A DNA stretch of 64,000 bases from Bacteroidales bacterium (GTDB lineage Bacteria > Bacteroidota > Bacteroidia > Bacteroidales > Tenuifilaceae), in contig JACABB010000019.1 in the NCBI GenBank assembly GCA_013376985.1, positions 14,160 to 78,159 of the forward strand. Direction: 5' to 3'. Positions within the stretch are counted from its first letter, which is position 1, and each line of letters opens with the position of its first letter. Shown in pieces: positions 43,844-60,466 of this stretch. Below the pieces are notes generated by a model. It saw only the letters and a program-made list of their open reading frames with translations, ran no database searches and was not told the origin of the DNA. A program made the translations under genes and the position numbers.

Positions 43844-44884
43844 TTAGTTCTCCTTCTCGTAGAACATTTTATAGAACTTCATATTCTTATCCTTGTCGTA
43901 TCCTGATTCAATTAAAGCCCTATCGCCATGAATGTAAACGCTGAAGTTTTTATCGAGCTTAAGGATGCTTTTGAAGAATTTTTGTGCCTGCTTTGTGGCA
44001 TCAACTGAAATGGTAAATTCGCTGGGTATGTTATATCCCAATTCCGTTTCGTAGCTTTTCTTGTACTCCTGAAATGCTTCAATCACCTCGGGTTGTTTAA
44101 TTACTGTGGCTTCGAACTCATCCTGCTCAAAGGTTTCGTTATTCTTAAAGAAATCACGTGTTTTAGTAAGCATTTCGGCCTGTTGCAGCTTGGGAAAGTT
44201 GTTCTGGGGATTTATCACATCCTGCACAAAACCCTTACAGAGATCAATTGTTGCCTTGGTTTTGTAAAAATTAACATCGCGCATGGTTACCTGTAAAAAC
44301 CTATCGACCCAATACTTAGCCTCCTCCTTGTTTGTATTGTCAATTACGCAGACCTTGTAGCCCAAATCCTTTTCGGTGTTGAATATTAAACAACCCTTAT
44401 CGAGATGCTTTGTGTTTGTTCCAAACTCACAGCTTAAGCTGATTGAGGAACCGCTTCGGTTTACCTTTAAAAACTTATCCTTTGTTTCCGTTTTAAATAT
44501 TCCGATGGCATCGGCTAATTCATCCTCAACCACGCACCCACGGAAAGAGACAATGTACAGCTCCCCCTCCTTAATATTCGGGTGGTTTGTAACGTGCTTT
44601 AAATGCCGGGCAATATCGCACGATGCTTCAAGTAGCGTTTTCTTATCATCAAAGAGATCGGAAGCAAAGCTGAATATCTCGTTTAAATTCAGCGAACTCT
44701 CATGGCTAAATGAATAGAAACTAGGTTTCTTAAAATGAGAAGTAAAGTATTCCCTTAATAAATTTGAGAGTAATTCATTCGATAAATCAATGGGTTTATC
44801 GGATAATATCATATCGTTGGCATCGACAGATCCAATAAAATGGACAATTGCCTCATCGATTGTTGCATCGCTAAATTCGAGCAT
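43844..44884 (-). CDS. Nucleoid-associated protein, NdpA/YejK family
   Basis: 346 residues, soluble. The layout fits the 37-kDa nucleoid-associated (YejK) family: an N-terminal domain with IDEAIVHFIGS, a middle part with ELYIVSFRGCVVEDELADAIGIFK, and a C-terminal alpha/beta part. Members bind the nucleoid; the molecular role is unknown. It is divergent from the hdrC fragment at 45113, and its first 155 bp belong to the left copy of the duplicated segment. A second, broken copy of its start lies at 60259-60368 with a 15-codon deletion. Confidence 0.85.
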   Translation of the reverse strand: MLEFSDATIDEAIVHFIGSVDANDMILSDKPIDLSNELLSNLLREYFTSHFKKPSFYSFSHESSLNLNEIFSFASDLFDDKKTLLEASCDIARHLKHVTNHPNIKEGELYIVSFRGCVVEDELADAIGIFKTETKDKFLKVNRSGSSISLSCEFGTNTKHLDKGCLIFNTEKDLGYKVCVIDNTNKEEAKYWVDRFLQVTMRDVNFYKTKATIDLCKGFVQDVINPQNNFPKLQQAEMLTKTRDFFKNNETFEQDEFEATVIKQPEVIEAFQEYKKSYETELGYNIPSEFTISVDATKQAQKFFKSILKLDKNFSVYIHGDRALIESGYDKDKNMKFYKMFYEKEN

Positions 44885-45234
44885 AATAAAAATTTTGTTT
44901 CAAATATCACAACAATAATCGAATCTTCAATTTAAGTTGAATAAAAAAGTCGTTAAATAAATGGCTTTTTATTAGAGGTTTTTATCTTTGTTGTTTATTA
45001 AGAGGTGTAATAGCGATTTATAAGGATCACATTTTATAACATCTTAATAAATTGAAACGGTTCGAGAGATTATTAAGTTTTTTATAATTAAACGGTTACC
45101 AACAATTAGTGAATGGGAAAATTATTCGATAGGCTAAATAACGATGTTCGATTTGTTGAAGGTCTTTCAGCCTGTATCAATTGCGGAACCTGTACCGCAA
45201 TCTGCCCTGCCGCAGAGGTTTATGATTATCATCC
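44730..45234. repeat. Left copy of the 0.5-kb direct repeat bounding the inserted block
   Basis: 505 bp that align with 60259-60718. By eye I count about 13 substitutions and one 45-bp gap. The copy holds the first 155 bp of the nucleoid-protein gene, the shared intergenic region with a TATCTTTG box (44983-44990), and the first 41 codons of hdrC. Confidence 0.9.
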
Positions 45235-45348: not shown

Positions 45349-46218
45349 TTATTTCTCTAACCTTTTAATCAACTTAAAAGCAATAATAATTAGTGAAATA
45401 AAACCTAATGGGAGAAATATCCAGAAAAAGTTTATTGACTTTGCGTTTGTTTTGCTTTTTTCATTCAATTCTGACATTAACACATTAGATACCCATGAAT
45501 TTGAAGGGCTAATTTCTAATGCTTTATTATAGAATTTTTTTGCCGATTCATACTCACCCTCTCCAACACAAATCATTCCTAAAAATATATATGAAATATC
45601 GTAACCCCAATCGGGTAAAATAGGGTTGCTTTTATTTTCTGTCTTAAATTTCTCAACTGCTGTATTTAAATAATATTTTGCTGAATCGATATTTCCTCCA
45701 TAAATCTGTGGGAGGAAGTTATAGTACATTCCATAGGCTAAGTAAACTCTAGCAGAGTTATTAGTATCTACTTGCTTTGCAAAATCAAGATCTCGTAATA
45801 TTTGTGTTGTAGTAGCAGGCGAGCGTTTATATGCAACATAAAATAAGTTTAATATTGATCGTATAACATACCCATCAACAAATTTTGGGTTTAACTCAAT
45901 GCATTTATCCGAGTTTTTAATTCCATCAGTTAAACTAAGGTCCTGAAATTCTGAATCTGTTATATTCTTTTGCATTAAAAATACAATTGAATAATAATCA
46001 TTCAGCGCAGAATAATAATAAACAAGGTACTCATCCTTATACTTCTCCTTTAATTTATTTAGCTGTAATTGAGTAAGTTTAAATCCCTCTAAATCATTAT
46101 ACTTAAAATTACCTGATATGTTTGTTTTAACTTGTTTAATCTCCTGTTCAAACTCATTACCAGCAAAAGCGCTAGTTAAAGTGAGTAAGAAAAATATAAA
46201 AATTTCAAATTTTTTCAT
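45349..46218 (-). CDS. Exported TPR protein with C-terminal membrane anchor (RiPP locus)
   Basis: 289 residues: a signal peptide ending AFA, degenerate TPR units (about 80-245), and a C-terminal membrane helix (FFWIFLPLGFISLIIIAF) with a basic tail. It shares a pattern with two other proteins of the block: ILPDWGYDISYIFLG here, ILPKWGKSYAYYYL in the 48917-49729 product, and TLPDWGFDETYYYMAQ in the 57984-59453 product. The three are paralogues by this mark. It lies 22 bp downstream of the TonB receptor and is the last gene of the cluster. Its role is unknown; scaffold or partner of the receptor is a guess. Confidence 0.75.
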   Translation of the reverse strand: MKKFEIFIFFLLTLTSAFAGNEFEQEIKQVKTNISGNFKYNDLEGFKLTQLQLNKLKEKYKDEYLVYYYSALNDYYSIVFLMQKNITDSEFQDLSLTDGIKNSDKCIELNPKFVDGYVIRSILNLFYVAYKRSPATTTQILRDLDFAKQVDTNNSARVYLAYGMYYNFLPQIYGGNIDSAKYYLNTAVEKFKTENKSNPILPDWGYDISYIFLGMICVGEGEYESAKKFYNKALEISPSNSWVSNVLMSELNEKSKTNAKSINFFWIFLPLGFISLIIIAFKLIKRLEK

Positions 46219-46240
46219 ATGTTAACTTTTATTACTTCAA

Positions 46241-48424
46241 TTAAAAAGAAACATTAATACCAAAATATATATTTCTGAGCATAGTTGAACTTATTGGTAC
46301 TCTTTCACTATAGTCATCTGAATATCTATACCCAAAAATATTTTGTCGTCCCAAAATATTATTTATTGCAATATAGATTACATTTAAATTGCTTTTTTTA
46401 AAACTAATTTTATAATTCATCGAAGCATCTAACACATTATAATACCTTACTCTAGCGTTATGATATTCAAACTGATTGCTAGTATATGGTTTCCCAGTTG
46501 CAAATCTATCTTTGAGTCCCAAATACCACGAATTAGTAATATTATATTCAATTGTATTTGTAAATGTCCATCTAATATCAAATTCAGTAGGGGCTAAATA
46601 TGGAGAATCAAACCAATTTCTCTTTGTATTCAAATAACTTAGTGATAACATACAATTCAATTTCATGAACTTCTTTTTTAAGAAAAGATCAACTCCTTTT
46701 GCATAGCCATAACCATTATTATTATAATTCAAAGAGGTATCATTCAAAAGAAGATTTTTATAATCCTTAAAATAAAACTCTAACCGAAACAATAAATCTT
46801 CATTTTCTCTTGAAATACCAAGCACATAATGATTTGAATACTGAGCTATTAAATTTCTATTTTTAATATCTGATGAATAGTATTTAGGATCTAAAAACTG
46901 ATGATATTTTCCCACAGAAGCAACAAGATCGATGTTTTTTAATAGGTTAATCTTTAAAGAACTTCTAAAATCAATAATATTTTCATTGCTTTTAGATTCA
47001 TTCTCGTATCTTAAACCAAAACTCAAATTATTTTTTTTAAGAAATTTCCACACCCATTTATTATAAATAGCCATTCTATTTGATAAATACTTTAAATCCC
47101 AATTTTTATATTCGTACGGAGATATTATTTGACCAGGCTCTGTTGAAAAATCACCTTCAGAAACCTCTCTATTCGAAAAGAAATTTAAACCAATTGAACT
47201 TGATATTTTATTATTGAAGAAATAAGTCATACTTCCTAAAGCCTGATACATTTTGTTTATCGAATTTAGGTTTAATCCTAAATTTGATATTTCGGATAAT
47301 GATTTGTAATAGCTATATGCGAGATTACCTCTAAATATAATCTTGCTATTTACTGATTGATACCAACAAAGATTAATAAAATTATTACGGTTCTTGCCAC
47401 CAAAATTTGACGGCACATTGGGTGAATTAATTGAAACATTAATTTGATCACCTTCATTTAAATAAAATATCTTTAATGAACCAGTTCTTGAGTATTTATA
47501 AAACCAATTTACATTAAAATCAGAGGAAGTAGGGTAAGTTAGAAATGTTTTACTTGTATTTCCATTTAGTTTAAAAAGATATTTTGTATCTGAATAATTA
47601 GCGGAAACTAATAAACTCATTTTATTATCTAAGAACGGCTTTCCAAGTCTTATCCCAACACCTGCTAATCCAATATTCATATCAAGCATTTTATCATCCA
47701 GCAAATCAACACTCTTCATATCCAATATTCCAGACATAGAATTACCATATTCAGTACCAAAACCACCCGTGGAAAAACTTGTATTTTGAAGTTGAAATGA
47801 TGACATTATTCCATAATAACCTCCATTTGGAGATTCAAATCGATAAGGGTGGTAAAGATATGCTCCATCTAAAATTATTGCCGTTTCAGACTGATCTCCG
47901 CCCCTAATGAATAAACCTGATCCTTCACTTACTTCCTGAATTCCTGGAAACACTTTCAAGGCTCCGAATGAGTCGCCAGAAGATCCAGGAATCTGCAGCA
48001 TTTCAAGTGTTTTTAGCGTGGATTTCCTTTGATCACCAGTAGAATAACGACTTGCTTCCACTACTACTTCCTTAATATCATTTGTTTTAGTCTCTAATTC
48101 TATTTTTCCTATCTTAAAGTCTTTTATATCTTTTAGGGGAAGAATTTTACCCTGAAAACCAATACAACTAATAATTATAGTATCAACATTACTACAGCTT
48201 GAAATGTTGAGTTTAAAATGCCCAGTAGAATCGGTTATTATTCCACTTGTTCTTCCTTTAACATATATATTTGCATATTCAATTGGCCGCCCGTCACTTG
48301 AAATTAAATAACCGTCGAAATAATTGTTTTCTTGAGCTATAACAATATTGCTATATGTAACAAATATTACTAATATTAGTATTACCCGGTTTATTGTCTG
48401 ATAATATCTAATTCTACTATTCAT
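46241..48424 (-). CDS. TonB-dependent receptor of the RiPP locus
   Basis: 727 residues: a signal peptide (ILILVIFVTYSNIVIAQ), a carboxypeptidase-regulatory-like domain (about 36-110; GYLISSDGRPIEYANIYV), a plug (about 120-240; LFIRGGDQSETAIILDGAYLY), and a barrel ending in phenylalanine (GINVSF). It should import a ligand across the outer membrane using TonB energy. It has no SusD partner. It lies within the RiPP gene order, one base from the preceding membrane-protein gene. It may take back the modified peptide (as for a metallophore), or be a target or part of self-protection. Confidence 0.88.
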   Translation of the reverse strand: MNSRIRYYQTINRVILILVIFVTYSNIVIAQENNYFDGYLISSDGRPIEYANIYVKGRTSGIITDSTGHFKLNISSCSNVDTIIISCIGFQGKILPLKDIKDFKIGKIELETKTNDIKEVVVEASRYSTGDQRKSTLKTLEMLQIPGSSGDSFGALKVFPGIQEVSEGSGLFIRGGDQSETAIILDGAYLYHPYRFESPNGGYYGIMSSFQLQNTSFSTGGFGTEYGNSMSGILDMKSVDLLDDKMLDMNIGLAGVGIRLGKPFLDNKMSLLVSANYSDTKYLFKLNGNTSKTFLTYPTSSDFNVNWFYKYSRTGSLKIFYLNEGDQINVSINSPNVPSNFGGKNRNNFINLCWYQSVNSKIIFRGNLAYSYYKSLSEISNLGLNLNSINKMYQALGSMTYFFNNKISSSIGLNFFSNREVSEGDFSTEPGQIISPYEYKNWDLKYLSNRMAIYNKWVWKFLKKNNLSFGLRYENESKSNENIIDFRSSLKINLLKNIDLVASVGKYHQFLDPKYYSSDIKNRNLIAQYSNHYVLGISRENEDLLFRLEFYFKDYKNLLLNDTSLNYNNNGYGYAKGVDLFLKKKFMKLNCMLSLSYLNTKRNWFDSPYLAPTEFDIRWTFTNTIEYNITNSWYLGLKDRFATGKPYTSNQFEYHNARVRYYNVLDASMNYKISFKKSNLNVIYIAINNILGRQNIFGYRYSDDYSERVPISSTMLRNIYFGINVSF

Positions 48425-48425
48425 A

Positions 48426-48920
48426 CTATCTAATAATTAATAAAAGTAACATACCCAATAACTTATAATTAATATAAAAAATAAATGCACTCAACAAAAA
48501 AGATGTAGAATTAGATATAAATGAAACTTTCAAGGAAAGCAATAAACTCACTTTATACGACTCATTACGAATTGCCTTATTCCTTGAAATAAAATACACT
48601 CCAACGGCCTCAATCAAAACAATAAGTATTTCATATATAATAATTGGAAGTTCAAGTTTTGAATAATTATTAAACTCTTTATTTATAATAAAAAAAGCGG
48701 AGAAAGTTATACACGTCATTATAAAATATAATAAGAAGAATCTATCTCCTCTTTTTATTTTGTTTTTTATAAACAAATAAGCTACATAGGTTTCTACTAG
48801 TAAAGAATAGAAATATATAATAATTCCAATAATTTCATTTTCAATAACATTTCCCAAGAATAACTCTAAAGGCAAAAGAATTATCAAAAACAAAATAAAA
48901 CTATATAGAATATATTTCAT
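48426..48920 (-). CDS. Small membrane protein of the RiPP locus
   Basis: 164 residues with about five membrane helices (YILYSFILFLIILLPLELFLG first) and lysine/arginine-rich short loops (KNKIKRGDR). I do not recognise a family. It overlaps the upstream lipoprotein gene by 4 bp and ends 1 bp before the TonB receptor start, so all three are translated from one message. An immunity or transport accessory role is possible but unsupported beyond position. Confidence 0.65.
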   Translation of the reverse strand: MKYILYSFILFLIILLPLELFLGNVIENEIIGIIIYFYSLLVETYVAYLFIKNKIKRGDRFFLLYFIMTCITFSAFFIINKEFNNYSKLELPIIIYEILIVLIEAVGVYFISRNKAIRNESYKVSLLLSLKVSFISNSTSFLLSAFIFYINYKLLGMLLLLIIR

Positions 48921-49729
48921 AAATTTTTTAATTTATCTTTTAACATATTTATTCTAACATCGTTTGGGAATTTTTTCAAAGCAATATCCAGATGAGTCCA
49001 GCATTTTTCATATTCCTTTCTGTTACGATAATATTCAATTAAATAATAATATGCATAACTTTTTCCCCATTTAGGTAAAATTGGATTATCAATATGCCTA
49101 TCTTCCATGCTAATAGCCTTTAATAAAAGACTTTCCATAGTTGTTTCTTTTCTTAATATAGAAGGCGAATAAAAATCAAGCATAGCTAAACCAAGATATG
49201 CTCTTAAGTTATTCGTATCCAACATAATTGATTTCTCACCGTATGCCTTACTTTTTGCAGCAATAACATTAACCTCCATTAATGAACCATTTATTGCACT
49301 TAATCCCAATAGCTGTGACATTAAAACCAAATGCTCAGAAGTTTTCTTTTTTGTATCGTTTAATAATGAGAGGCCTTCATTAACAAATGGAACTAAATCT
49401 TTATCTTTATGCTGAACCAGTAACGCCAGTGAAGTAATATAGCAAGTGTATGATTGCCAATAAGAATAGACCGATTTATCAATTAAGTTTCTATTCTTTT
49501 CGAGTTCATTTTTTATTCTAACTAAAGAATCTATACTTTTAACTTTCATGCAGTATAAAAATGAATTTTCTACTTTAGAATCCATTTCATTTATGAAACT
49601 TAAACTCGAATTACCCTTTACTATTTCATTAAAACTAATAAAGTCCTGATAGTTATTACAATAATCTGATTTACAGCATACTAAAACGATGCTACAGATT
49701 ATAAAAAAAATAATTTTATATACTTTCAT
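48917..49729 (-). CDS. Probable lipoprotein with TPR-like repeats (RiPP locus)
   Basis: 270 residues: a hydrophobic leader with a lipobox-like LVCC (Cys19/20), then helical, TPR-like units ending in CWTHLDIALKKFPNDVRIN. It carries the ILPKWGKSYAYYYL mark shared with the other two TPR proteins of the block. It starts 8 bp past the second radical SAM gene and overlaps the small membrane protein gene by 4 bp. Probably anchored in the outer or inner membrane; function unknown. Confidence 0.7.
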   Translation of the reverse strand: MKVYKIIFFIICSIVLVCCKSDYCNNYQDFISFNEIVKGNSSLSFINEMDSKVENSFLYCMKVKSIDSLVRIKNELEKNRNLIDKSVYSYWQSYTCYITSLALLVQHKDKDLVPFVNEGLSLLNDTKKKTSEHLVLMSQLLGLSAINGSLMEVNVIAAKSKAYGEKSIMLDTNNLRAYLGLAMLDFYSPSILRKETTMESLLLKAISMEDRHIDNPILPKWGKSYAYYYLIEYYRNRKEYEKCWTHLDIALKKFPNDVRINMLKDKLKNL

Positions 49730-49737
49730 AATACAAT

Positions 49738-50967
49738 TTATTTACAATTGACCCTTTCGAGAAAAGTATTATACCCTTTCCTGATCCTTTCATTACTTGC
49801 AATGTACAAATCACGACATCCTTTTGTTAGGGCATCAGCAGACATCAACTTCGGTTTATAAACAACCGATAAATTATTATACTTTGACCAATCTCTAACT
49901 ATAATTCTATTCTCATTCTCAAAATCACGATAAATCTTTGTACCAGGCATAGGAGTTACTATATTAAACGCCGGTAAATCAATATCTGCTTTCTCAACAA
50001 ATTCATACGTGCTATTAAATATGCTTTCATCATCAAAGTCTAAACCCAAAATAAAGGTTCCTTGAAAAATCATACCTGCATCCCTGATTTTTTTTACGAA
50101 ATCAATATAATTTTCAATTTTATTCATTGATTTATCTATGCTGGTGAGACTTTTAGCATTTACAGACTCAATTCCAATACATAAATAAACACAACCACTT
50201 TCATACATTAATTTTAATAATTCAGGATCACTAGAAATGGTAATATTTGCTTGTCCCCACCATTTAATATTTAAATTTTTTAATTCAGAAAACAATGATT
50301 TAGCAAATTTTTTGTCGCAAGCAATATTGTCATCATTAAAAGAAAGGTAATTTTCATATATCCCATTGTCAATCATATTCTTTACCTCATTAACAATATG
50401 ATCAACAGGTCTAAACCTATACGTATTGCCGTAAAACTCTGTAACGGAACAAAAACTACATTTATACGGACATCCTCTTGAACCATGAACAGCAGCAACA
50501 GAAATATAATTTTTCTTTTTTAGAATGTCCAGCCTTGCTCTAGGAATTTCTTTCATATCAATAAAAGCGTCAGCTTTATAAATCTTTTTCAATCGATCCT
50601 CACAAAAATCTTCAATAACATCATTCCAAACGCTCTCCGCTTCACCAACTACAACTGCATCACAATAATTAAGTGCCTCATCAGGTAAGAGTGAGACGTG
50701 CATTCCACCTAATACAACTTTCTTTCCAATTTCACGATATTTTTGAGCAATACTATAAATATAAGGCGCATTCATTGTTAAAACGCTCATTGCCACAAGA
50801 TCTGTATCTTTATTAATTTTAATTGTACTATCACCAAGAAATACCTCTTCATATTCCGCATCAACATAATCCGGTGTAAGAGCCATTATTGTGGGTAGTG
50901 CTAATGCTATTCCAAATCTCTGATGTAAAGCATTTGGTGATAATATTTCAATTAATCTTAATTTCAT
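49738..50967 (-). CDS. B12-binding radical SAM enzyme 2 (RiPP locus)
   Basis: 409 residues. The N-terminal cobalamin-binding Rossmann domain (about 1-125) has KKVVLGGMHVSLLPDEAL and lacks the DXHXXG motif, as is usual in radical SAM methyltransferases of class B. The radical SAM core has RGCPYKCSFC with Cys166, Cys170 and Cys173 for the 4Fe-4S cluster, then NDDNIACDK. Class B enzymes methylate unreactive carbons; in RiPP pathways they methylate azole or side-chain carbons. It lies 23 bp downstream of a clear paralogue. Substrate inferred to be the cluster's peptide. Confidence 0.85.
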   Translation of the reverse strand: MKLRLIEILSPNALHQRFGIALALPTIMALTPDYVDAEYEEVFLGDSTIKINKDTDLVAMSVLTMNAPYIYSIAQKYREIGKKVVLGGMHVSLLPDEALNYCDAVVVGEAESVWNDVIEDFCEDRLKKIYKADAFIDMKEIPRARLDILKKKNYISVAAVHGSRGCPYKCSFCSVTEFYGNTYRFRPVDHIVNEVKNMIDNGIYENYLSFNDDNIACDKKFAKSLFSELKNLNIKWWGQANITISSDPELLKLMYESGCVYLCIGIESVNAKSLTSIDKSMNKIENYIDFVKKIRDAGMIFQGTFILGLDFDDESIFNSTYEFVEKADIDLPAFNIVTPMPGTKIYRDFENENRIIVRDWSKYNNLSVVYKPKLMSADALTKGCRDLYIASNERIRKGYNTFLERVNCK

Positions 50968-50990
50968 AATTTGTATTTACTTTAAATAAA

Positions 50991-52208
50991 TTAATTCCAC
51001 TTCTCTTTAAAATGATTTAATCCTTTTTGACTTCTACTGGAAACAGATTTGTAAGCATTTCTAAATTGTTCTTGCAACACTTCAGGTTTTATTAACTTAG
51101 GTAGGTAAACAACATTATTAAGATCGTACATAGACCAATCTCTATTTATTATTCGATTTTGATCTTCAAGCCTCTGATAAACCCTTGTACCAGAATAAGG
51201 AGTGTAAATACAAAATACAGGGATGTCAATATCCGTACGTTCAATAAAATCCAATGTTTCATTAAAAACGTTACAATCATCAGTATCAAACCCAAAAATG
51301 AAAGATCCATTAATTAATATGCCTTGATCTTTAATTTTTTTAATTGATTCTTCATATTTCTTTACATTATTGAATGATTTATTAACAGATTCAAGGCTTA
51401 AAGGTGAAGTAGACTCAATTCCTAAATATAAACTAATACAACCACTCTCTGATGCTAGTTTTAATAGCTCATCATCTTCTGCAATACTAACATTTGCTTG
51501 TGAAATCCATTTAATATTTAATTCCTTAAGTTGAGTAAATAATTTTTTTGCATATTTTTTATTACAAGCAATATTATCATCATTAAAAGGTATATATTTA
51601 TGATAAAGGCCATTCTCCTTAAAATGAATTATTTCTTGTATTATGTTTTCAACAGGTCTAGTTCTATAGGATCTACCATAAAACTGAGTAACGCTACAAT
51701 AATCACAATCGTTCGGACATCCTCGTGATGCATGTATAGCCGATTTTGATAAGTAATGTGAACCATTTAGTAAATCAATTCTTGAAAAAGGAACATCTTT
51801 CATATCGCAATGTGAAGATGCTCTATAAATACTCTTTAAATCATCGTTAATAAAATCTTCAATTACATTTTTCCATACCAATTCAGCCTCACCTATTACT
51901 ACTGCATCACAATAGTTTAAAGCTTCATGAGGTAAAGCACTAGGATGACTTCCTCCAAGAACAACCTTTTTACCAATATCTCGATAGGCTTGAGATATCT
52001 CATAAGCAAAAGGAGCATTCGTGGTTAAAACGCTTATCGCTATTAAATCTACATCATTTCTGATAGTATATTTGGAATTTTTTTTAATATCTTCAATTTC
52101 AATATCTAAATAATCAGGAGTTAATGCAGCAACAATCGGTATTCCTAACATAGGTAAATACCCTTCACTAATCATTGGAGAAATAATATTTATAAACTTG
52201 ATATTCAT
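50991..52208 (-). CDS. B12-binding radical SAM enzyme 1 (RiPP locus)
   Basis: 405 residues, collinear with its neighbour throughout (compare VVLGGSHPSALPHEALNYCD and VVLGGMHVSLLPDEALNYCD), so the pair arose by tandem duplication. It has a cobalamin-binding N-terminal domain without DXHXXG and a radical SAM site RGCPNDCDYC (Cys164, Cys168, Cys171). Probably a class B C-methyltransferase acting on the RiPP. It is preceded by a 176-bp gap with a small hairpin, so it may start a second transcript. Confidence 0.85.
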   Translation of the reverse strand: MNIKFINIISPMISEGYLPMLGIPIVAALTPDYLDIEIEDIKKNSKYTIRNDVDLIAISVLTTNAPFAYEISQAYRDIGKKVVLGGSHPSALPHEALNYCDAVVIGEAELVWKNVIEDFINDDLKSIYRASSHCDMKDVPFSRIDLLNGSHYLSKSAIHASRGCPNDCDYCSVTQFYGRSYRTRPVENIIQEIIHFKENGLYHKYIPFNDDNIACNKKYAKKLFTQLKELNIKWISQANVSIAEDDELLKLASESGCISLYLGIESTSPLSLESVNKSFNNVKKYEESIKKIKDQGILINGSFIFGFDTDDCNVFNETLDFIERTDIDIPVFCIYTPYSGTRVYQRLEDQNRIINRDWSMYDLNNVVYLPKLIKPEVLQEQFRNAYKSVSSRSQKGLNHFKEKWN

Positions 52209-52340
52209 CTTTTTCTGTTAATAAAATAATTTTCAAATTGATTGCTTTACCATAAAGTTAACCTGCCATGTAAACACTTAATCACTCTATTACTATTTTA
52301 ATAATATATTCACATTTTAGAAACATATATATTTATTTTC

Positions 52341-52359
52341 AGTCTTATAAATTAAGACT
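52341..52359. other. Small hairpin in the gap between protease and radical SAM genes
   Basis: AGTCTTA (52341-52347) and TAAGACT (52353-52359) form a 7-bp stem with a 5-nt loop. No T-run follows on the minus strand, so it is a weak terminator candidate at best. The rest of the 176-bp gap is AT-rich with no gene. Confidence 0.4.
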
Positions 52360-52384
52360 AGTAAATCAATCAAACATTATTATA

Positions 52385-52882
52385 CTAATGAAATCGAACT
52401 TCCTTGGCTATTAGAAGAATTATAACAACTAACCATACAAAAAAATGTAGATACCATTTAAAAGAATATAAATAATCTCTTTTAGAACTATTAATCTGAT
52501 TTTCTATTTGTTTAGTTATATTTTTGTTATTATTCTCACTTGACTTTGGCTTAAAGGCAATTGTAAAATCAGAATAAAATGGATTACTTTCCATACATAG
52601 TTTAATGATTAACGCAATTCTCAAAAAATCATATTTAAGCTGTAAATTGAAATAGGTTAACAAATAAACAATGATAGTCATACTAATACCCGAAAAAAGG
52701 AAAACGTATTTCTTCCACACACTTTTTTCAATTAAGGCCGTTACGTATGGATGAGGGTATGGCATAAGCGTAATACCTGCTTTAATATTTTTTAGTTTCA
52801 TTACATTAGCACTAATATAATGCCCTAATTCATGCAATACAACTAATAATAAGTATGTTAATAAAACGCCTAAATAATTCAT
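52385..52882 (-). CDS. M50-type membrane metalloprotease (RiPP locus)
   Basis: I place the start at 52882 (MNYLGVLLTY), where ATG overlaps the permease stop as ATGA; the longer frame only re-reads permease sequence. This gives 165 residues with four or five membrane helices. The zinc motif HELGH is at residues 17-21 inside the first helix, and ESNPFYSDF may supply the NPxxD-type third ligand of site-2 proteases. It is very short for M50. By position, after the exporter genes, it may remove the leader peptide, or act on the exporter or a regulator. Confidence 0.75.
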   Translation of the reverse strand: MNYLGVLLTYLLLVVLHELGHYISANVMKLKNIKAGITLMPYPHPYVTALIEKSVWKKYVFLFSGISMTIIVYLLTYFNLQLKYDFLRIALIIKLCMESNPFYSDFTIAFKPKSSENNNKNITKQIENQINSSKRDYLYSFKWYLHFFVWLVVIILLIAKEVRFH

Positions 52883-53592
52883 CGCTGTGAGTATTTTGAA
52901 ACCAACGCAAACATGCCTCCAAATAAAATAATCCAACCAATTAGAGCAAAAATATAAATGTATGAACCTCGAAGAAATAATAAAAAGTGAGTCAAGGGAA
53001 GCATATTAGAAATAATCAAAACCGGTTTACCCATTTTTTCAATTGGGATAAATGTTCCACTTAAGAATAGCATAATTGTATATATGGAACTGATAATTAT
53101 TCTTCCCCCTTCAACTTTAGTAAATGAAGTTAATACTAAACTCATGAAAGAAAATAAAATTTGACCAAGAATTACACCTAAAAGAAAAGTAAATATTTCT
53201 TTCATGGTTGGTGGATAACTGAAAAATATTGCTGAAATAGAGCATATTATTGTTATGGTCAACAGCATAACGAAAATTCTACTTAAGAAATAACCTAGAA
53301 AATGATAAATAATATTTACAGGCAAGTTTTGTAAAAACTTAAGTACATTATTTTGTTTGTATGCATTAAAAACGGGTCCAACAGCAAAAAGACTATCACT
53401 GGCAACAACCATTCCTATAATGCCTGTAAGCAAAAATATATTTGATTGCCCAGTATTTGTTTGAAAAAGATATCCAAAAATTACAAATAAAATTACTGGG
53501 AAAATAATGGTTGCAAATAGCACTTCCTTTATTCTAAAAGAACTTACTGATTGTAAGTAGGAAAAATAAATGACACTCTTTAATGATTTCAT
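52879..53592 (-). CDS. ABC transporter permease (RiPP exporter)
   Basis: 237 residues with six membrane helices (VLFATIIFPVILFVIFGYLF first), in the style of ABC-2 type permeases. It overlaps the ATP-binding gene by 4 bp on one side and the M50 protease gene by 4 bp on the other, so the three are translationally coupled. Together with the ATPase it should export the modified peptide across the inner membrane or give self-immunity. Confidence 0.85.
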   Translation of the reverse strand: MKSLKSVIYFSYLQSVSSFRIKEVLFATIIFPVILFVIFGYLFQTNTGQSNIFLLTGIIGMVVASDSLFAVGPVFNAYKQNNVLKFLQNLPVNIIYHFLGYFLSRIFVMLLTITIICSISAIFFSYPPTMKEIFTFLLGVILGQILFSFMSLVLTSFTKVEGGRIIISSIYTIMLFLSGTFIPIEKMGKPVLIISNMLPLTHFLLFLRGSYIYIFALIGWIILFGGMFALVSKYSQR

Positions 53593-54446
53593 ATTTTTTT
53601 GTTTTCAATAAATAAAAAAACATCCTTAATACTTTTATCCATTACTGAAAAATTAGTGTTAGAACCAATTTTCTGGAGATAAGCATTCATATCTTTAGGA
53701 AAAACATGTATTTGTTCATCATCTTCATATCTAAAATATTCTTCACCCTCATCAAACTTTACATGTTGATTCTTCTTACTTATAATGATTTTCTTATCAC
53801 CATTAATGTACTTATTACTTAAAAAAGCATCTTTAAGATCAATTGCTAATATTTTGCCTTCTGAAATAAATGCAATTTTATCAGCATAAACTTGAGCTTC
53901 TTCCCACTGATGTGTAGTAAAAAAGATTGTTCTTTTTTCATTGGTAAATAAATTCCAAGCAATATCTCGAGTAAAAGGATCAATTTCTGCTGTAGGTTCA
54001 TCTAAAATAATAAACTCCGGATTATGTATCATCATTAAAAGAATTCCCAACTTTTTTCTTTCACCTTTTGATAGTACATTAATCAAAGAGTTATTTATTT
54101 TATCAATACTTAAATTCTGTATAATTAAAGATATTTCCTGTAGTTTAACACCATGGATTAAACATATATAAGCAATAAACTCCTTCACTTTAAAATAGGG
54201 GAACAAAGGTGGATATTCATACAAAACGCCTACTCTACCCTTTACATTCCTAAAACTCGAATTTAATATCTCTACTTTGCCCTCAGTCTGCTTAATTGCA
54301 TTAGTAATAATATCAATCAAGGTTGATTTACCTGATCCATTGTGGCCTAGTAATGCTAAGCGCTCATTTGGAAGAATTTCTAAATTTATATTCTTTAGAA
54401 TATCTTTATCTTTAACCCTATAGCTTACGTTTTGTATTTTTATCAT
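53589..54446 (-). CDS. ABC transporter ATP-binding protein (RiPP exporter)
   Basis: 285 residues. Walker A GHNGSGKST (34-42), signature VLSKGERKK (about 122) with Lys in place of the usual Gly (LSKGE for LSGGQ), Walker B FIILDEPTAEID, and the H-loop TTHQW. The C-terminal 70 residues extend beyond the core, as in bacteriocin-type ABC-2 ATPases. It energises the permease encoded by the overlapping next gene. Confidence 0.9.
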   Translation of the reverse strand: MIKIQNVSYRVKDKDILKNINLEILPNERLALLGHNGSGKSTLIDIITNAIKQTEGKVEILNSSFRNVKGRVGVLYEYPPLFPYFKVKEFIAYICLIHGVKLQEISLIIQNLSIDKINNSLINVLSKGERKKLGILLMMIHNPEFIILDEPTAEIDPFTRDIAWNLFTNEKRTIFFTTHQWEEAQVYADKIAFISEGKILAIDLKDAFLSNKYINGDKKIIISKKNQHVKFDEGEEYFRYEDDEQIHVFPKDMNAYLQKIGSNTNFSVMDKSIKDVFLFIENKKI

Positions 54447-54467
54447 TTTTAAAAAAATTTCTACCGT

Positions 54468-55328
54468 TTACAATTTCTTTCCAAATACGATAACACTCTG
54501 TATAGCTTCTGAAGTACCGTCAAGTCCAATGAAAGAGTTAACATCATTATCGAAATATCCACCAACCATACAAGAACCTAGACCTATTGCTTCGCAAACA
54601 AGGCTAAAATTCATTCCTACATGCCCAACCTCTTGCAATATAAATCGATAACCTCTATCTCCGTACTTAATCATATTCCGTTCATATATACTTGATATTA
54701 AGAATACTCCGCTTGAATTTTTTAAATCCACTACTGGTTCTGCTTTTATTTGATCTTTCAAGGAATGATAAAAGTTACCCTTTTCCAATAACTCAACTCC
54801 ATTAATATCGGGTCTATAGTGATATAAACCAGGTTCAAATTCAGAATCAAACAAAACAATATAAATTTCTAATGGATACAATGCCCCACCGGAGGGAACG
54901 GCACGATAACACCATTCTCCGATTTCAAGTTCTCTGATCTTTTGTCTATCATGAACACCGTAAGAATAATGACAAAGCGAGTACAATTCAGGTTTTGTAA
55001 TAGGATATTTAGCGAATTTTCTAATGCTTCTTCTCTTTGAAATTAAATCAAAGATATTAGCATTAGATACAACCGATTCATTTTTGCTATCATCAAAACT
55101 AAAAAACTTCTTATATGAATATGGTTTAAATGGTTGACTAGCTCGTTCGTGAAAGAAAGCACTATTGAAACCACCAATATTAATACTTGTTTTTCTACCT
55201 TGATAGTAATCAAACTTTGAATTTTCATGAAATATTAATGCTTGCGAATTTAATTCAAGTTTTAACCGATAGTATGGTAAACTCTTATCTTCAAATTCTT
55301 CCTTTAATGAAATATTATCTATATCCAT
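54468..55328 (-). CDS. SagB-type FMN-dependent azoline dehydrogenase
   Basis: 286 residues of the SagB/ThcOx nitroreductase group. FMN-binding SKRRSIRKF (98-105), VPSGGALYP (144-152), and KYGDRGYRF with the Lys221-Tyr222 pair in the place of the catalytic KY of McbC/BalhB-type enzymes; QEVGHVGMN follows, another mark of the group. It should oxidise azolines made by the YcaO enzyme to aromatic thiazoles or oxazoles. It lies 45 bp after the YcaO gene, in the usual TOMM order. Confidence 0.9.
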   Translation of the reverse strand: MDIDNISLKEEFEDKSLPYYRLKLELNSQALIFHENSKFDYYQGRKTSINIGGFNSAFFHERASQPFKPYSYKKFFSFDDSKNESVVSNANIFDLISKRRSIRKFAKYPITKPELYSLCHYSYGVHDRQKIRELEIGEWCYRAVPSGGALYPLEIYIVLFDSEFEPGLYHYRPDINGVELLEKGNFYHSLKDQIKAEPVVDLKNSSGVFLISSIYERNMIKYGDRGYRFILQEVGHVGMNFSLVCEAIGLGSCMVGGYFDNDVNSFIGLDGTSEAIQSVIVFGKKL

Positions 55329-55373
55329 AATATAATAAATAATTAATTAACAATAATAAATCTTCAATTCAGG

Positions 55374-56669
55374 TTATGGGAATGGATGAGGGAATTTATT
55401 TAGTTCATCGTAATCTTTTACCTTTTGACCCATTGTACCTGCAACTTCATACAAACGTTTACCTCCAAGGTAATAGTTTCCATAAATCCCGCCTAAACTT
55501 ATAAGTTCAGGAATAATAGTTCTCATACTACAAAAGCCTATCTCTGCGACATCGACTGTTGTATTATCCTTTACAAGAACACTATATCCTTTACTTTTCA
55601 TTACTTTCAAAATTTTATGAATCTTCTCCTTTGAATCATCCAATGGTTTTTCATCAAAATCAATTTCTTTGTTTGGTGTAAGATTAACTAATCTATCAAA
55701 AACATGCCATAAATCTTTTCTTTTAGTATAAAAAATAGTATGCTCGTCAAAATCAACGCATTCCTCAAATTTATTAGGATACCACCCTCTTTTCTTAGAC
55801 AATAAATATCTCACGTAAGGTACACCTTGAGCAATTTCTTTAATTGTCTTTTTTAAAGATTCGCCGTATGTATCTCTAGTTGATGCCCCAACAATTATAT
55901 ATTTACCAAATTCAGCATCGCCAATGCAAATACCAAACGTAGTAGGTGTCTTTAAATCAAATGTTAAATCAAAAAAATGAAACTCAGGATTACCAGGAAA
56001 AATACTCTTTAGAAATACTTTAATTCTAGGAGATATCTTAATTTTTGGAACTTCAAGTTCTTGCATCCAAAAATTAACAAACGAATCTCTTTCAATCAAT
56101 TCATACAAACCAGTCAATATGCAATCATGAACATTATTATGTGCTGCTAATCCTGTAGAATTAGCATAACTTATTTTTTGCTCCCTTTCTCGCAATGGCA
56201 TATAAACAAGATTTGCAGGATACCATACATCTCCGCCATTAATCAAGTCATAACATTTTGTCCAGTGTATCTCGATATCTTCATTGAATTCTACAAATGG
56301 AAAATTTGGCGATTCATATTGTTTCTTATGAAATAAAGCAATATCATTTGGATGTATTGCCTTAACATTAAGGTTTTTATAACTTGATTTGATTAAATCT
56401 TTTTTATCATAAAAGATAGGGCAATACCGTTCCACCGTTTCACCAAGAGTACCAATTAATGCTTCCTCCCAAGTTGTTCCACATCCACTACTCGGTCCAA
56501 AATAATCACTTTTAACAAATGCTCGCGTAGCGCATGGAGAGACCCCATAAAAAATCATGTTGGGATCATTATTACTCCTAGGTATTCTGATCAAACTCTT
56601 CAATATTCCAGAGTCTCTTGAGATAAGATCCAGACTTCTATTTAAGTAATTATTTCTAAAATCATTCAT
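55374..56669 (-). CDS. YcaO-type azoline-forming cyclodehydratase (TOMM D protein)
   Basis: 431 residues. The ATP/Mg-binding acidic motifs are SSGCGTTWEEALIGTLGETV (60-79) and LYELIERDSF (188-198), which match the conserved ExxxE and ExxE/R sites of YcaO enzymes. The C-terminus ends in the proline-rich NKFPHPFP, like the PxPxP tail that orders the active site in azoline-forming YcaOs. It uses ATP to cyclise Cys (and perhaps Ser/Thr) of the precursor to azolines. It overlaps the gene of its partner protein by 8 bp. Confidence 0.93.
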   Translation of the reverse strand: MNDFRNNYLNRSLDLISRDSGILKSLIRIPRSNNDPNMIFYGVSPCATRAFVKSDYFGPSSGCGTTWEEALIGTLGETVERYCPIFYDKKDLIKSSYKNLNVKAIHPNDIALFHKKQYESPNFPFVEFNEDIEIHWTKCYDLINGGDVWYPANLVYMPLREREQKISYANSTGLAAHNNVHDCILTGLYELIERDSFVNFWMQELEVPKIKISPRIKVFLKSIFPGNPEFHFFDLTFDLKTPTTFGICIGDAEFGKYIIVGASTRDTYGESLKKTIKEIAQGVPYVRYLLSKKRGWYPNKFEECVDFDEHTIFYTKRKDLWHVFDRLVNLTPNKEIDFDEKPLDDSKEKIHKILKVMKSKGYSVLVKDNTTVDVAEIGFCSMRTIIPELISLGGIYGNYYLGGKRLYEVAGTMGQKVKDYDELNKFPHPFP

Positions 56670-57660
56670 CTTTAGTATTTTTTAAAGTTGCAGTCTCAAG
56701 CCATGGTGCAGGATTAAAATCCATTTTGGGATTACATACAGGACAATGAGGAATCTTTAAAAATGGATTCGATTTTATCTGATAATCGTTAATATTAATA
56801 CTTAAAAACGCCTTAAAGATAGAAGGGATAGAAAAATCTGTAAGATATTTTACACTTTCCAATATAGCAATCGACGCTAAAATATCATAGCTAACTGCTA
56901 ATCCACCATCAATTGCCGATGAGGTTTTATTAAGTCTTAAAAAATTCTCATATTCTTCAAAATGGGAAAGATAAGACATTGTACTTTTAACCCTTGTGAT
57001 CAAACAATTGTAACATCCAGTTATTCCAGGAATAAAAATAGGTCCAACTGTACCCCTTGTTGATTCATTACCTCTAACAATGATCCACGGTTTTTTATTA
57101 TCTAATGCGAACTTATTAAAATTCTCTAAGAAAATCGGGTCCCAGCTATCTGAATCAACAATTATCAAATCAGAAGATTTACAAGCTTTAAATATTTCGT
57201 CAATGTTATAGCTTTCCTCAAGTAATATCTTAATTACATTTTTGTACCCAGTTTTTTTCGCTTTTGTTTCCAACAATTCAACGAGTAAACCTCTTCCAAT
57301 AATTACAATTTCTGACGTAGCTATTTTTTTTGCAAAGTCATTTGAAAAACTACTATACTTGTCGATAAACTTAAATTGTTCTAAATTCTCAAAAGTATCT
57401 TGATTTTGAAATACATTAAACTTCTTTAATTTATCTATTACATTAATAACATTATCCTTGTTATTATTTCCATCAATTAATTCTGAAATTAATTGCTGAA
57501 AATCACTGATATTTTTATTTTTTAAAATATCAACTATAGATAGAAAAATAACCTTCTCTTCTTCTTGAGTGAATTGTATAGTAATGATATCACTTTTAGA
57601 TCGTATTTGATATATCCCATCAGATTTATTTTCAAACACATCATACTTAAACTTAATCAT
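56662..57660 (-). CDS. TOMM precursor-binding E1-like partner protein (C protein)
   Basis: 332 residues. Residues 1-95 look like the winged-helix peptide-clasp (RRE) domain that binds the leader. The rest is a ThiF/E1-like Rossmann fold (VIIGRGLLVELLETKAK at about 119; DLIIVDSD). Two Cys pairs, GCYNC (216, 219) and HCPVC (306, 309), form the structural zinc site of this family. It presents the precursor to the YcaO enzyme and activates it. It is the first enzyme gene after the precursor, 95 bp downstream and past a strong hairpin. Confidence 0.88.
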   Translation of the reverse strand: MIKFKYDVFENKSDGIYQIRSKSDIITIQFTQEEEKVIFLSIVDILKNKNISDFQQLISELIDGNNNKDNVINVIDKLKKFNVFQNQDTFENLEQFKFIDKYSSFSNDFAKKIATSEIVIIGRGLLVELLETKAKKTGYKNVIKILLEESYNIDEIFKACKSSDLIIVDSDSWDPIFLENFNKFALDNKKPWIIVRGNESTRGTVGPIFIPGITGCYNCLITRVKSTMSYLSHFEEYENFLRLNKTSSAIDGGLAVSYDILASIAILESVKYLTDFSIPSIFKAFLSININDYQIKSNPFLKIPHCPVCNPKMDFNPAPWLETATLKNTKDE

Positions 57661-57708
57661 AATTTCTATGTTTATATTTAATTAAACATTTCAAATTTTT
57701 GAAAATCA

Positions 57709-57739
57709 GAGGGAAGGAACTCTCTGAATTCCTTCCCTC
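57709..57739 (-). terminator. Hairpin between precursor and biosynthetic genes
   Basis: A perfect 11-bp stem (GAGGGAAGGAA, 57709-57719, with 57729-57739) has a 9-nt loop. It begins 16 bp past the precursor stop. On the minus strand it is followed by TGATTTTC, a weak T-run, then by a second palindrome (57689-57704). It is likely a leaky terminator or a 3'-stabilising structure that keeps precursor mRNA more abundant than enzyme mRNA. Confidence 0.75.
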
Positions 57740-57755
57740 CTTTGAATCACAGTGC

Positions 57756-57959
57756 TTATGACCAGCAGCAGCATGTTGCAATACAGCAACAGCAATCACC
57801 AGCTACAACAAGCTCATGCTCTTCATTGGCATTCAATTTGTTGATTTGCATAAAAGTAGATTTTAAGGTTAATACTAAAAAACTATCTATATTAGAGTCT
57901 AGACTCTCATGGTTGGAATTCTTTTTGTTATTTCTCATAATCAAGTTCATTAAAATCAT
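57756..57959 (-). CDS. Cys-rich azole-RiPP precursor peptide
   Basis: 67 residues from the longest frame; Met4 and Met8 are also possible starts and no ribosome-binding site decides. The leader (to about residue 55) has no Cys and is acidic near its end (NEEHELVVAGD). The core is CCCCIATCCCWS (Cys56-59 and 63-65, plus Thr62 and Ser67). It starts 24 bp after the PA14-TPR gene and is followed by a hairpin and the azole-forming enzyme genes. Seven Cys in twelve residues could give up to seven thiazoles. Cleavage near GD before the first Cys is a guess. I know of no described peptide with this core. Confidence 0.88.
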   Translation of the reverse strand: MILMNLIMRNNKKNSNHESLDSNIDSFLVLTLKSTFMQINKLNANEEHELVVAGDCCCCIATCCCWS

Positions 57960-57983
57960 ACACTTAAAAATTTGAATAAATAA

Positions 57984-59453
57984 TTAATACAAAAAGAAAC
58001 TATTTGGTATTACTTGTCGCTTTATTTTTTTTGATTCATACTCAAGTTTAAGACTCATATCTGCACCTCTTTGAAAATACTCTAATCTAATCTTGTGCTT
58101 ACCTTTACTTAATACTTTTTGAAAGGCTAATGTCATACTATCATGTATTCCGTCATTAACAATAACTAATTCATCATCAATGTATAGTTTGCTCCCATCG
58201 TCAGAGGTTAAATAAAAACAATATGCATCTCCTTCTAAAATTTCTAAAAATCCATTATATACTATACCAAAATTAGATTCACGTTTACGTACATCCAAAC
58301 TAATTCCCTTTACTGTAGAACTCTTTATTTCCTTATACAATTTAAAATCAGGTAAATTCTTCCATGTTTCTTCGTAATAAGAATAACTTAATCCAGAAGA
58401 AAAATTCGATTTCTCTAACTTATATTGATTATCCACTAACTTCTTAACTACGTAATTAGCAGATAAAATATCGGTAAAATGCTCCTCATCGAAAAAAGCT
58501 CGAACTTTTAATACACAACTTTTATCAATTGTTATTGGTGATGTATATTTAGAAGAATTATACTCAGGATCGCTCCCATCCAATGTATATCTTATCTCTT
58601 TTGCAACTAAATGTTTAATTACCACAATTAAATTATTGTCAGGCAATATTTCACCTCCTAAGGGACTTATCGATATACCTTTAAACCTTTTAAGGGAAAA
58701 CTTTGGATAAGTGATATTCTTTAATAATCCAAAATTTGGATTTATTTCAAATGATTTGGAATAATAAAAATCTGCTTTAACTATATCATTTTGCCGTTCA
58801 TATATTTGAGCCATGTAGTAATAAGTCTCATCAAAACCCCAATCAGGCAAGGTATTGTCAGTTATTTTATATTTCTTGAAGTTTAGTATTGCTAAATTAA
58901 AATCGGCCAAAGCTTTATCAAGGCCTCCTCCAAATACTTCAGGAGTATACATATTACTAATACCTCTCAAATAGTACAATCTAGGATTATTAGGTGCAAT
59001 TTTTTCTGCTGTTTTTAAGGTCACAGTAGCCTTCTTCATCAATGACACCGGATCATCACCACAACTGACTTTTAAATTATATATGTAGGCTAATAATACA
59101 TACGACTCAGAAAAATCTTTATTAAGAACACATGACTCCTCAAGTAACTCTATCCCTTGATTCAAGTATTTTTCTTTTTCGTCTTTAGAATCCTTTGTTA
59201 ATGAGATGTATAAATCTGATAATGCTATATAATAATTTAACAAGTAAATTTTCTTATTAAAACTTAATAATCTTTCAAATTGCGCTTTAGAAGTAAAAAA
59301 AAGATTCTGATTAAAATCGTTATATGATTGCTTTAAAAAAACTTTATTCTTAACTATTTCTTCGTCCAGATTATCGCAATTACCTTCCGAACAAATAATT
59401 ACTAATGAACACAACAATAATAAAAGAGAAATTTTTTTCATCTTATTATGCAT
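57984..59453 (-). CDS. Exported TPR protein with chitobiase-like and PA14 domains (RiPP locus)
   Basis: 489 residues. A signal peptide (ISLLLLLCSLVIICSEG) leads to TPR-like units (about 30-255) with the TLPDWGFDETYYYMAQ mark shared by two other proteins of the block. About 270-330 is a chitobiase-C-terminal-like beta domain (YTLDGSDPEYNSSKYTSPI), and about 350-480 a PA14-like domain (YCFYLTSDDGSKLYIDDE). PA14 and this beta domain bind carbohydrates or cell-surface ligands in other proteins. It is the first gene of the cluster, directly upstream of the precursor, which is unusual for a RiPP operon. Role unknown; receptor, immunity or surface delivery are all open. Confidence 0.78.
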   Translation of the reverse strand: MHNKMKKISLLLLLCSLVIICSEGNCDNLDEEIVKNKVFLKQSYNDFNQNLFFTSKAQFERLLSFNKKIYLLNYYIALSDLYISLTKDSKDEKEKYLNQGIELLEESCVLNKDFSESYVLLAYIYNLKVSCGDDPVSLMKKATVTLKTAEKIAPNNPRLYYLRGISNMYTPEVFGGGLDKALADFNLAILNFKKYKITDNTLPDWGFDETYYYMAQIYERQNDIVKADFYYSKSFEINPNFGLLKNITYPKFSLKRFKGISISPLGGEILPDNNLIVVIKHLVAKEIRYTLDGSDPEYNSSKYTSPITIDKSCVLKVRAFFDEEHFTDILSANYVVKKLVDNQYKLEKSNFSSGLSYSYYEETWKNLPDFKLYKEIKSSTVKGISLDVRKRESNFGIVYNGFLEILEGDAYCFYLTSDDGSKLYIDDELVIVNDGIHDSMTLAFQKVLSKGKHKIRLEYFQRGADMSLKLEYESKKIKRQVIPNSFFLY

Positions 59454-60258: not shown

Positions 60259-60368
60259 TTAAAATGAGAAGTAAAGTATTCCCTTAATAAATTTGAGAGC
60301 AGTTCATTCGATAAATCAATGGGTTTATCGGATAATATCATATCGTTGGCATCGCTAAATTCGAGCAT
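60259..60368 (-). pseudogene. 5' fragment of the nucleoid-associated protein gene
   Basis: From ATG 60368 the minus strand reads MLEFSDANDMILSDKP, as the intact gene does but without 15 codons (residues 8-22 of the full protein). Homology ends after YFTSHF at the repeat border. Two substitutions distinguish it further. Non-functional remnant of the insertion or duplication. Confidence 0.85.
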
Positions 60369-60466
60369 AATAAAAATTTTGTTTCAAACATCACAACAAT
60401 AATCGAATCTTCAATTTAAGTTGAATAAAAAAGTCGTTAAATAAATGGCTTTTTATTAGAGGTTTT

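Follow-up and report, generated by a model that had tools for sequence, protein, structure and literature searches.

Among the described thiazole/oxazole-modified microcins (TOMMs), one of the systems closest to the cluster reported here is the streptolysin-S-like cytolysin group (Cox et al. 2015), with which it shares separate C and D proteins, a SagB-type dehydrogenase, ABC transporter genes and a Cys-rich core placed after a Gly. The features given for this group in the relevant sections of PMC4603692 are CaaX-like proteases and a Gly followed by 10 or more heterocyclisable residues; its main text contains none of the terms Bacteroid-, TonB and radical SAM. For Bacteroidales, a BAGEL4 survey of 1,136 genomes counted 10 areas with YcaO and a dehydrogenase ("ThioE") and 6 with a radical SAM enzyme, YcaO and "ThioE" (PMC10352776), hence azole-type areas have already been detected in this order. 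The YcaO clusters detailed there are of the amidine type; they have C39-peptidase exporters and in some cases outer-membrane proteins, and the main text of the survey makes no mention of SagB, TonB or M50. The subject of the present analysis is a cluster of 14 genes found in a 64,000-nt stretch, hereafter the window, of a Bacteroidales bacterium (Tenuifilaceae; GCA_013376985.1, contig JACABB010000019.1, positions 14,160 to 78,159). Unlike the cytolysin group, it resides in a Gram-negative host and combines an interrupted, shorter core with an M50-type protease, a pair of B12-binding radical SAM enzymes, HusA-like tetratricopeptide repeat (TPR) proteins and a TonB-dependent receptor.

The cluster is a real, compact, acquired island of the TOMM kind, predicted to code for a ribosomally synthesised and post-translationally modified peptide (RiPP) of the azole type. 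We propose, with a probability of roughly 55%, that the product of this 15-kb island is a linear polyazole peptide and that a HusAB-like module encoded in it handles this peptide in the envelope. The recurring pair of a HusA-like carrier and a TonB-dependent receptor is the new and testable element.

All genes listed in an earlier reading of this DNA (the original prediction) are minus-strand open reading frames (ORFs) between 45349 and 59453 of the window, and the gene set, its coordinates and its single strand were borne out by the ORFs together with Pfam and NCBIfam domain matches. Coordinates below are those of the window, and the cluster genes all lie on the minus strand. The order of transcription is TPR1, precursor A, C, D (YcaO), B (SagB), ABC ATPase, ABC permease, M50, radical SAM 1, radical SAM 2, TPR2, a small membrane protein, the TonB-dependent receptor and TPR3. 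Spacing between the genes is -58 to +176 bp (-58 if M50 starts at TTG), so the cluster is operon-like. The C protein (56662..57660), an E1/ThiF-like leader-binding partner of the cyclodehydratase (RRE, for RiPP recognition element, is the term in use), exceeds the cut-offs of TIGR03882 (45.6 bits against 36.9) and ThiF (29.6 against 28.1), has two CxxC pairs at 216 and 306, and stays under the cut-off of the SagC subfamily model TIGR03603 (65.9 bits against 187.7). The D protein (55374..56669) is a YcaO cyclodehydratase of SagD type (TIGR03604, 264 bits against a cut-off of 219; Pfam YcaO, 214 bits). Its C-terminus is PHPFP, present in five of the six rows of alignment A1, and a C-terminal PxPxP is a mark of azoline-forming YcaO proteins. 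The B protein (54468..55328) is a SagB-type dehydrogenase (TIGR03605, 122.7 bits against 78.4) in which K221-Y222, corresponding to the catalytic Lys-Tyr of SagB, is invariant across six aligned rows (alignment A4); a SagB profile matched CyaGox and McbC in the PDB. Next to them stand an ABC transporter ATPase (53589..54446; ABC_tran, 97 bits) and an ABC-2 type permease (52879..53592; ABC2_membrane, 63 bits).

Precursor A (57756..57959) has 67 residues, with Met 4 and Met 8 as alternative starts, and ends in GDCCCCIATCCCWS. Its 7 Cys within 12 residues rank first among the 736 window ORFs of at least 20 aa, the runner-up having 5, and 5 was also the maximum in 30 first-order Markov sequences of 64 kb. 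A SagD-type YcaO, an E1-like C protein, a SagB-type dehydrogenase and a Cys/Ser/Thr-rich precursor adjoining the enzymes, the features of TOMMs and linear azol(in)e-containing peptides (LAPs), are all present and support a predicted azole-RiPP core. On this point the original prediction is upheld by family models above their cut-offs and by the PHPFP end of YcaO.

The boundaries of the island, overlooked by the original prediction, are drawn by a drop in GC content and by direct repeats. The segment 45180-60240 has a GC fraction of 0.285, versus 0.349 and 0.396 in the left and right flanks. The left repeat (44730..45234) covers the 5' end of an NA37 gene, an intergenic stretch and a fragment of the 5' end of hdrC; the right one (60259..60718) covers a fragment of the NA37 5' end, the intergenic stretch and the 5' end of an intact hdrC. 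The copies are 96.6% identical over 377 nt (44859-45234 and 60342-60718) and 98% over 96 nt (44730-44825 and 60259-60354). The flanking NA37-family (43844-44884) and HdrC-like (60597-61310) genes, named from a Pfam match and by eye, are neighbours in four of four same-genus genomes, 232, 392, 752 and 235 bp apart, and no YcaO match at E<=1e-10 was obtained in these four genomes, one of which (G1029) is 67% complete. The cluster is thus an inserted, acquired island of 15 kb. The simplest account is that its 14 genes arrived together, and this backs the boundaries of the cluster without recourse to annotation. Pfam and NCBIfam searches found no integrase or transposase family among the 14 cluster proteins. 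The hdrC fragment of the left repeat is not identical to the resident (right) copy, which is the one that relatives more often match.

Relatives of the window YcaO are rare. Counting the window genome each time, they were found in 2 of 295 genomes of the order (E<=1e-20), 6 of 395 genomes of the phylum (E<=1e-15) and, by profile, 3 of 395 genomes of the class (E<=1e-25); the genome samples behind these counts and the radical SAM count below overlap. With the window YcaO as sole query, pattern scans of genome_contigs and viral_contigs gave no relatives, and a tblastn search against plasmids gave 80 records, every one below 60% identity. A profile built from two relatives found four loci in genome_contigs, in Bacteroidales RGIG371, Bacteroides sp. 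S18_Bin4, a Cytophagaceae metagenome-assembled genome and a haloarchaeon. The RGIG371 locus (L030), from a cattle colon source, is the same as L016 of genome G208, the match being 100% identical.

Eight Bacteroidota clusters with discrete C and D proteins were compared: the window, L014 (G465), L015 (G460), L016/L030 (G208), L017 (G356), L031 (Bacteroides sp. S18_Bin4), L032 (Cytophagaceae) and L037 (G1006). This set excludes G546 and G513, where the YcaO match lies in an ORF of 760 or 768 aa also matching the C protein, as well as the archaeal L033, the two other YcaO genes of the window genome and the plasmid loci. ORFs of the fetched relatives were named by eye or profile unless a family search is given. 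L016/L030 and L031 are both arranged A-C-D-TPR-B-M50-receptor, L031 with a LytTR-looking ORF upstream, L015 is A-C-D-B-M50-TPR-receptor, and L032 is receptor-TPR-(candidate A)-C-D-TPR-B-M50. L017 is A-C-D-B-M50-DUF5686 barrel, the barrel not being counted as a homologous receptor, while L014 reads A-C-D-B-735-aa protein and L037 A-B12 radical SAM-C-D-B-754-aa protein; M50, TPR and receptor are all absent from the 20 kb fetched for L014 and L037. Overall, M50 occurs in six of the eight clusters (window included), a HusA-like TPR in five and a homologous receptor in five, TPR and receptor occurring together in all five. The profiles were built from cluster members: three M50-bearing clusters out of six, three TPR-bearing out of five and three receptor-bearing out of five went into the building sets, and the remainder were found by profile. 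Across 395 genomes, co-occurrence of D and TPR had a Fisher p of 0.0011 with the window genome; without it the overlap is 1 and p is about 0.04. The clusters L015, L016/L030, L031 and L032 therefore share C, D, B, M50, HusA-like TPR and TonB receptor with the window, and differ from it by an extra N-terminal region in M50, by giving no match to the radical SAM pair and by having no ABC pair recognised beside the core.

The original prediction held that this gene mix matches no TOMM class known to it. That part stands insofar as the cluster departs from the cytolysin group in three features and no account of C-D-B-M50-TPR-receptor clusters was found in the open-licence PMC papers searched, outside which lie subscription papers and most preprints; however, M50, HusA-like TPR and receptor recur in other Bacteroidota TOMM clusters, so the mix is not peculiar to this locus. 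Assignment of L014, L037 and Tistrella to the mobilisins was dropped, the mobilisin section of PMC4603692 naming Mobiluncus and Rhodococcus with low-Cys cores. Some observations on the relatives may be added. The candidate precursor of L032 (4296-4460) has a leader like those of L016 and L031 and a hydrophobic C-terminal part with one Cys; if real, L032 would be an azole-type cluster without a Cys run in its core. In L037 (8320-15761, in the large Bacteroidia genome G1006), the 754-aa protein resembles by look the 735-aa protein of L014. The window genome itself holds two further YcaO genes (616 and 600 aa; L020, G000:C42, 6099-11806, and L021, G000:C12, 1-13625), one beside a SPASM-type radical SAM protein (PapB model, 195 bits, under cut-off) and a CarbopepD_reg-looking outer-membrane protein, the other beside radical-SAM-, S8- and S41-looking proteins (by eye).

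Outside Bacteroidota, TOMM clusters on Lactiplantibacillus plantarum plasmids (NZ_CP104086, NZ_CP074421) share the A-C-D-B order, an ABC pair and a protease. One of them supplied the top-ranked YcaO of the plasmid search (29% identity over 99%; SagB 37%), in the order A-C-D-B-insulinase-ABC-ABC. They differ in having an insulinase-family protease instead of M50, radical SAM, TPR and receptor genes are not listed for them, and genes in NZ_CP074421 look broken. The window thus joins a Firmicutes-like exporter layout to the Bacteroidota accessory set. Among these plasmid loci, L011 has a short Cys-rich precursor at 6694-6801, and L012 has its YcaO divided between two annotated ORFs, with further genes that look disrupted.

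Further accessory genes are those for the TPR proteins and the receptor. HusA of Porphyromonas gingivalis is described, in the parts of the literature drawn on here, as a TPR-fold porphyrin carrier thought to work with the TonB receptor HusB, itself regarded as an uptake receptor. The HusA-HusB system and the window have in common a TPR-fold extracytoplasmic binding protein and a TonB-dependent receptor, the sequence comparison with this system covering the TPR proteins. TPR1 (57984..59453) joins a HusA-like TPR region (TPR profile, 78 bits) to Fn3-assoc/CHB_HEX and PA14 domains (Fn3_assoc 51 bits, PA14 57 bits) behind a lipoprotein-like signal. TPR2 (48917..49729) is HusA-like and has a signal sequence with a lipobox-like Cys, the lipobox being how lipoprotein signals are read. 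TPR3 (45349..46218; TPR profile, 74 bits) is HusA-like as well, with a C-terminal transmembrane-like (TM-like) stretch at 266-284. A single profile recovers all three, in agreement with the relatedness originally proposed for them. The receptor (46241..48424), two genes from TPR2, has a CarbopepD_reg_2 N-terminal domain (Pfam, 48 and 39 bits) and homologues in other clusters. By profile, the cluster TPR proteins are relatives of HusA: the first 269 aa of TPR1 matched HusA (6bqs) with 35.3 bits (E 8e-8), and TPR profile A8 matched it with 71.3 bits (E 8e-19) over residues 7-193 of the chain.

Several results weigh against the proposed explanation. As a single query, TPR2 gave no PDB match, and the L030 TPR reached 17.4 bits against HusA. 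Plain TPR proteins score level with HusA against the model, two of them higher. HusA residues W130, Y133 and R121 are replaced in the cluster TPR proteins, only the column of Y164 staying Y/F. The TPR is absent from three of the seven other clusters (L014, L017, L037), and the window YcaO and SagB are not firmly placed with the other TPR-bearing clusters (YcaO support 65/71; SagB approximately unbiased test, p 0.40); an independent recruitment of the accessory set by the window lineage was dropped, the two trees neither showing nor rejecting one clade. By phmmer at E<=0.01, the window ATPase matched only L011 among L011 and L013-L021, the loci covered, which places the ABC pair outside the shared Bacteroidota set. 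Finally, TPR2-receptor pairs occur in L027 (same genome), L028 and L029 with no azole genes recognised nearby, and the module thus has another, more general use. In L027 (6282-10247, G000:C12) the stand-alone TPR and receptor genes lie behind an HTH_34 regulator, with a similar layout in L028. Elsewhere in the window, outside the island (34451-37243), a small Cys/His-rich secreted-looking protein directly precedes another TonB-receptor-like ORF (by eye).

The probable start of the M50-type protease gene (52385..52882) is the ATG at 52882, which overlaps the stop of the permease gene and gives 165 aa, rather than the TTG at 52936 (183 aa). The score of the protease against Pfam (24.5 bits) is under the cut-off of 27.2, and it has HELGH at 35-39 after a TM-like stretch (15-33), with NPFYSD (HELGH...NPFYSDF) downstream; NP..D is the second motif of M50 enzymes. 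It could be aligned with M50s of two other clusters (alignment A5) and had no NCBIfam match at E<=0.01, YydH/LiaK and daptide models included. The M50s of L015, L016, L017, L031 and L032 have longer N-termini and all matched the daptide protease model (31-121 bits), four of the five also the YydH/LiaK model (29-48 bits), every score being under cut-off; the N-terminal part of that of L015 weakly matches a PqqD-related model (E 0.008). A review (PMC10885120) assigns M50 proteases to epipeptides and to pearlins, and M103 proteases (TldD/E) to LAPs. In the RiPP operon yydFGHIJ of Bacillus subtilis, which is of the epipeptide type, an M50-type membrane protease likewise stands together with an ABC pair and a radical SAM enzyme, but YcaO and SagB are absent from its five genes and the window M50 does not match the YydH/LiaK model.

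The two B12-binding radical SAM enzymes (50991..52208, Radical_SAM 62 bits, B12-binding 54.6 bits, motif CPNDCDYC; 49738..50967, 63 and 39.6 bits) are 52% identical, with the B12-binding domain and CxxxCxxC intact in both. Against methyltransferase models their best scores were 121.9 and 111.7 bits (HpnJ, BchE), and none of the best 25 models per protein reached its cut-off. At E<=1e-40 their family was found in 72 of 247 Bacteroidales genomes, the window's own counted, and is thus common in the order (nearest at 48% identity). YcaO or SagB was not recognised in six of its contexts (L058-L063; by eye among ORFs of at least 80 aa, no family search being made), so methylation of the peptide is plausible but only inferred. 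A different B12 radical SAM gene stands between precursor and C gene in L037, which shows that such an enzyme has entered an azole cluster of this phylum on at least one other occasion. Another radical-SAM-looking ORF lies nearby in L058.

What the sequences show directly is which genes are present, where the island ends, that M50, TPR and receptor recur, and that the TPR proteins are related to HusA at profile level. From the protein families we infer the steps by which the island would work, including its chemistry, the ligand, the direction of transport and any bioactivity. The C protein would bind the leader and present the core, YcaO and C would cyclodehydrate the seven Cys (perhaps also Thr/Ser) to azolines, and SagB would oxidise these to azoles. 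The two radical SAM enzymes would add further groups, probably methyls, M50, at the inner membrane, would cleave close to the Gly that precedes CCCC, and the ABC pair would export the product. In the envelope, the HusA-like TPR proteins may bind the flat hydrophobic product or a complex of it and pass it to or from the TonB-dependent receptor, the role suggested for HusA beside HusB. Uptake or recapture, as proposed for HusB, is our best guess for the direction of the receptor, and export the main alternative. Methanobactin operons offer a parallel, with a peptide bearing Cys-derived heterocycles and a TonB-dependent transporter serving re-uptake; they differ by their MbnB/MbnC chemistry and MATE exporter. 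Further comparison drew on portions of PMC6173696, PMC4513790, PMC7026026 and PMC3621798. A broader proposal, held tentatively and at clearly less than even odds, is that of a Bacteroidota RiPP class in which a polythiazole peptide has a HusAB-type pair of its own outside the cytoplasm: TPR proteins of haemophore fold would chaperone this flat heteroaromatic molecule and hand it to, or take it from, a TonB-dependent receptor, whether to recapture it with a metal or tetrapyrrole bound or to export it.

The other readings overlap with ours and are not mutually exclusive, hence their odds do not sum to one. M50 and the TPR proteins may instead feed the peptide to the receptor as an outer-membrane exit, like Oar for PopC in Myxococcus. 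This agrees with L015, L016 and L032, which have M50, TPR and receptor with no dedicated exporter recognised beside the core (by eye, with an additional phmmer search from the window ATPase for L015 and L016), and the M50 protease EpeP is presumed to act in both the cleavage and the export of EpeX (PMC10885120). Oar, a CarboxypepD_reg, plug and barrel protein, is needed for secretion, but the same architecture dominates Bacteroidetes TonB-dependent transporters, importer SusC included, in the passages concerned of PMC6434023. Given also that HusB is regarded as an uptake receptor and that the window cluster has its own ABC pair, we judge this exit rather unlikely. A streptolysin-S-type antibacterial or cytolytic peptide, with the TPR/receptor and ABC genes serving immunity, would account for the Cys-rich core after Gly and for the SagB/C/D-like enzymes and ABC genes. 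TIGR03602 is moreover the sole NCBIfam match of the window, L015, L016 and L031 precursors, yet the four scores (21.5, 19.8, 28.4 and 18.9 bits, respectively) all lie under the cut-off of 35. The window core is not a Gly followed by at least 10 potentially heterocyclised residues, the pattern given with the CaaX-like protease in the cytolysin sections of PMC4603692, and no Pfam match to such a protease was found at E<=0.01 among the 14 cluster proteins, M50 occurring instead. Membership of the cytolysin group was rejected on these three features, and the cytolytic reading is unlikely.

The HusA homology of the TPR proteins and the lack of any HemB match in the window genome (99% complete) could suggest a peptide haemophore: a RiPP that scavenges porphyrin or haem and, once loaded, would be taken up through the HusA-like carriers and the receptor. 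Yet among five genomes with TPR/receptor azole clusters, HemB is missing in the window genome, G208 and G1030 (completeness not given) and present in G460 and G1031. It is also absent from three of the three same-genus genomes tested that have no cluster; elsewhere it is present in G356, G465, G1006 and G649 and absent in G469. The cluster thus does not track haem need, which weakens the haem-scavenger reading; with the HusA groove residues replaced as described above, we find it improbable. We give similarly little credence to the TPR and receptor genes being chance neighbours of an ordinary exported LAP. The pairs found alone and the three of eight clusters lacking TPR would fit such an origin, but the genes lie inside the island and its operon-like run, TPR and receptor recur in five of the eight clusters, and a TPR gene sits between D and B in L016 and L031.

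Two further features of the cluster were recorded. The small membrane protein (48426..48920), a candidate immunity or helper protein with five TM-like stretches by hydropathy, had no Pfam match above cut-off and no relative among the loci scanned; a PHROGs scan of this protein, M50 and the precursor gave chance-level matches only. Between the precursor and C genes lies a hairpin (57708..57740, minus strand) of 15 pairs, two of them G-U, and the 86-nt stretch around it (57680-57765) has a folding energy of -30.2 kcal/mol (z -3.76). A role as terminator behind the precursor was discarded, the hairpin being absent from the terminator scan list.

The question raised by an acquired island with a putative polyazole product and a proposed envelope-handling module of its own is how a Gram-negative producer moves a hydrophobic azole peptide across its outer membrane, most of these clusters having no dedicated exporter recognised. 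The same-genus genomes with an empty site are natural cluster-minus relatives for comparison. The recurring carrier-receptor pair provides concrete genes and proteins, and may show how azole peptides cross the outer membrane. If the proposed carrier role is true, HusA would belong, as one branch, to a larger family of extracytoplasmic proteins that carry flat ligands.

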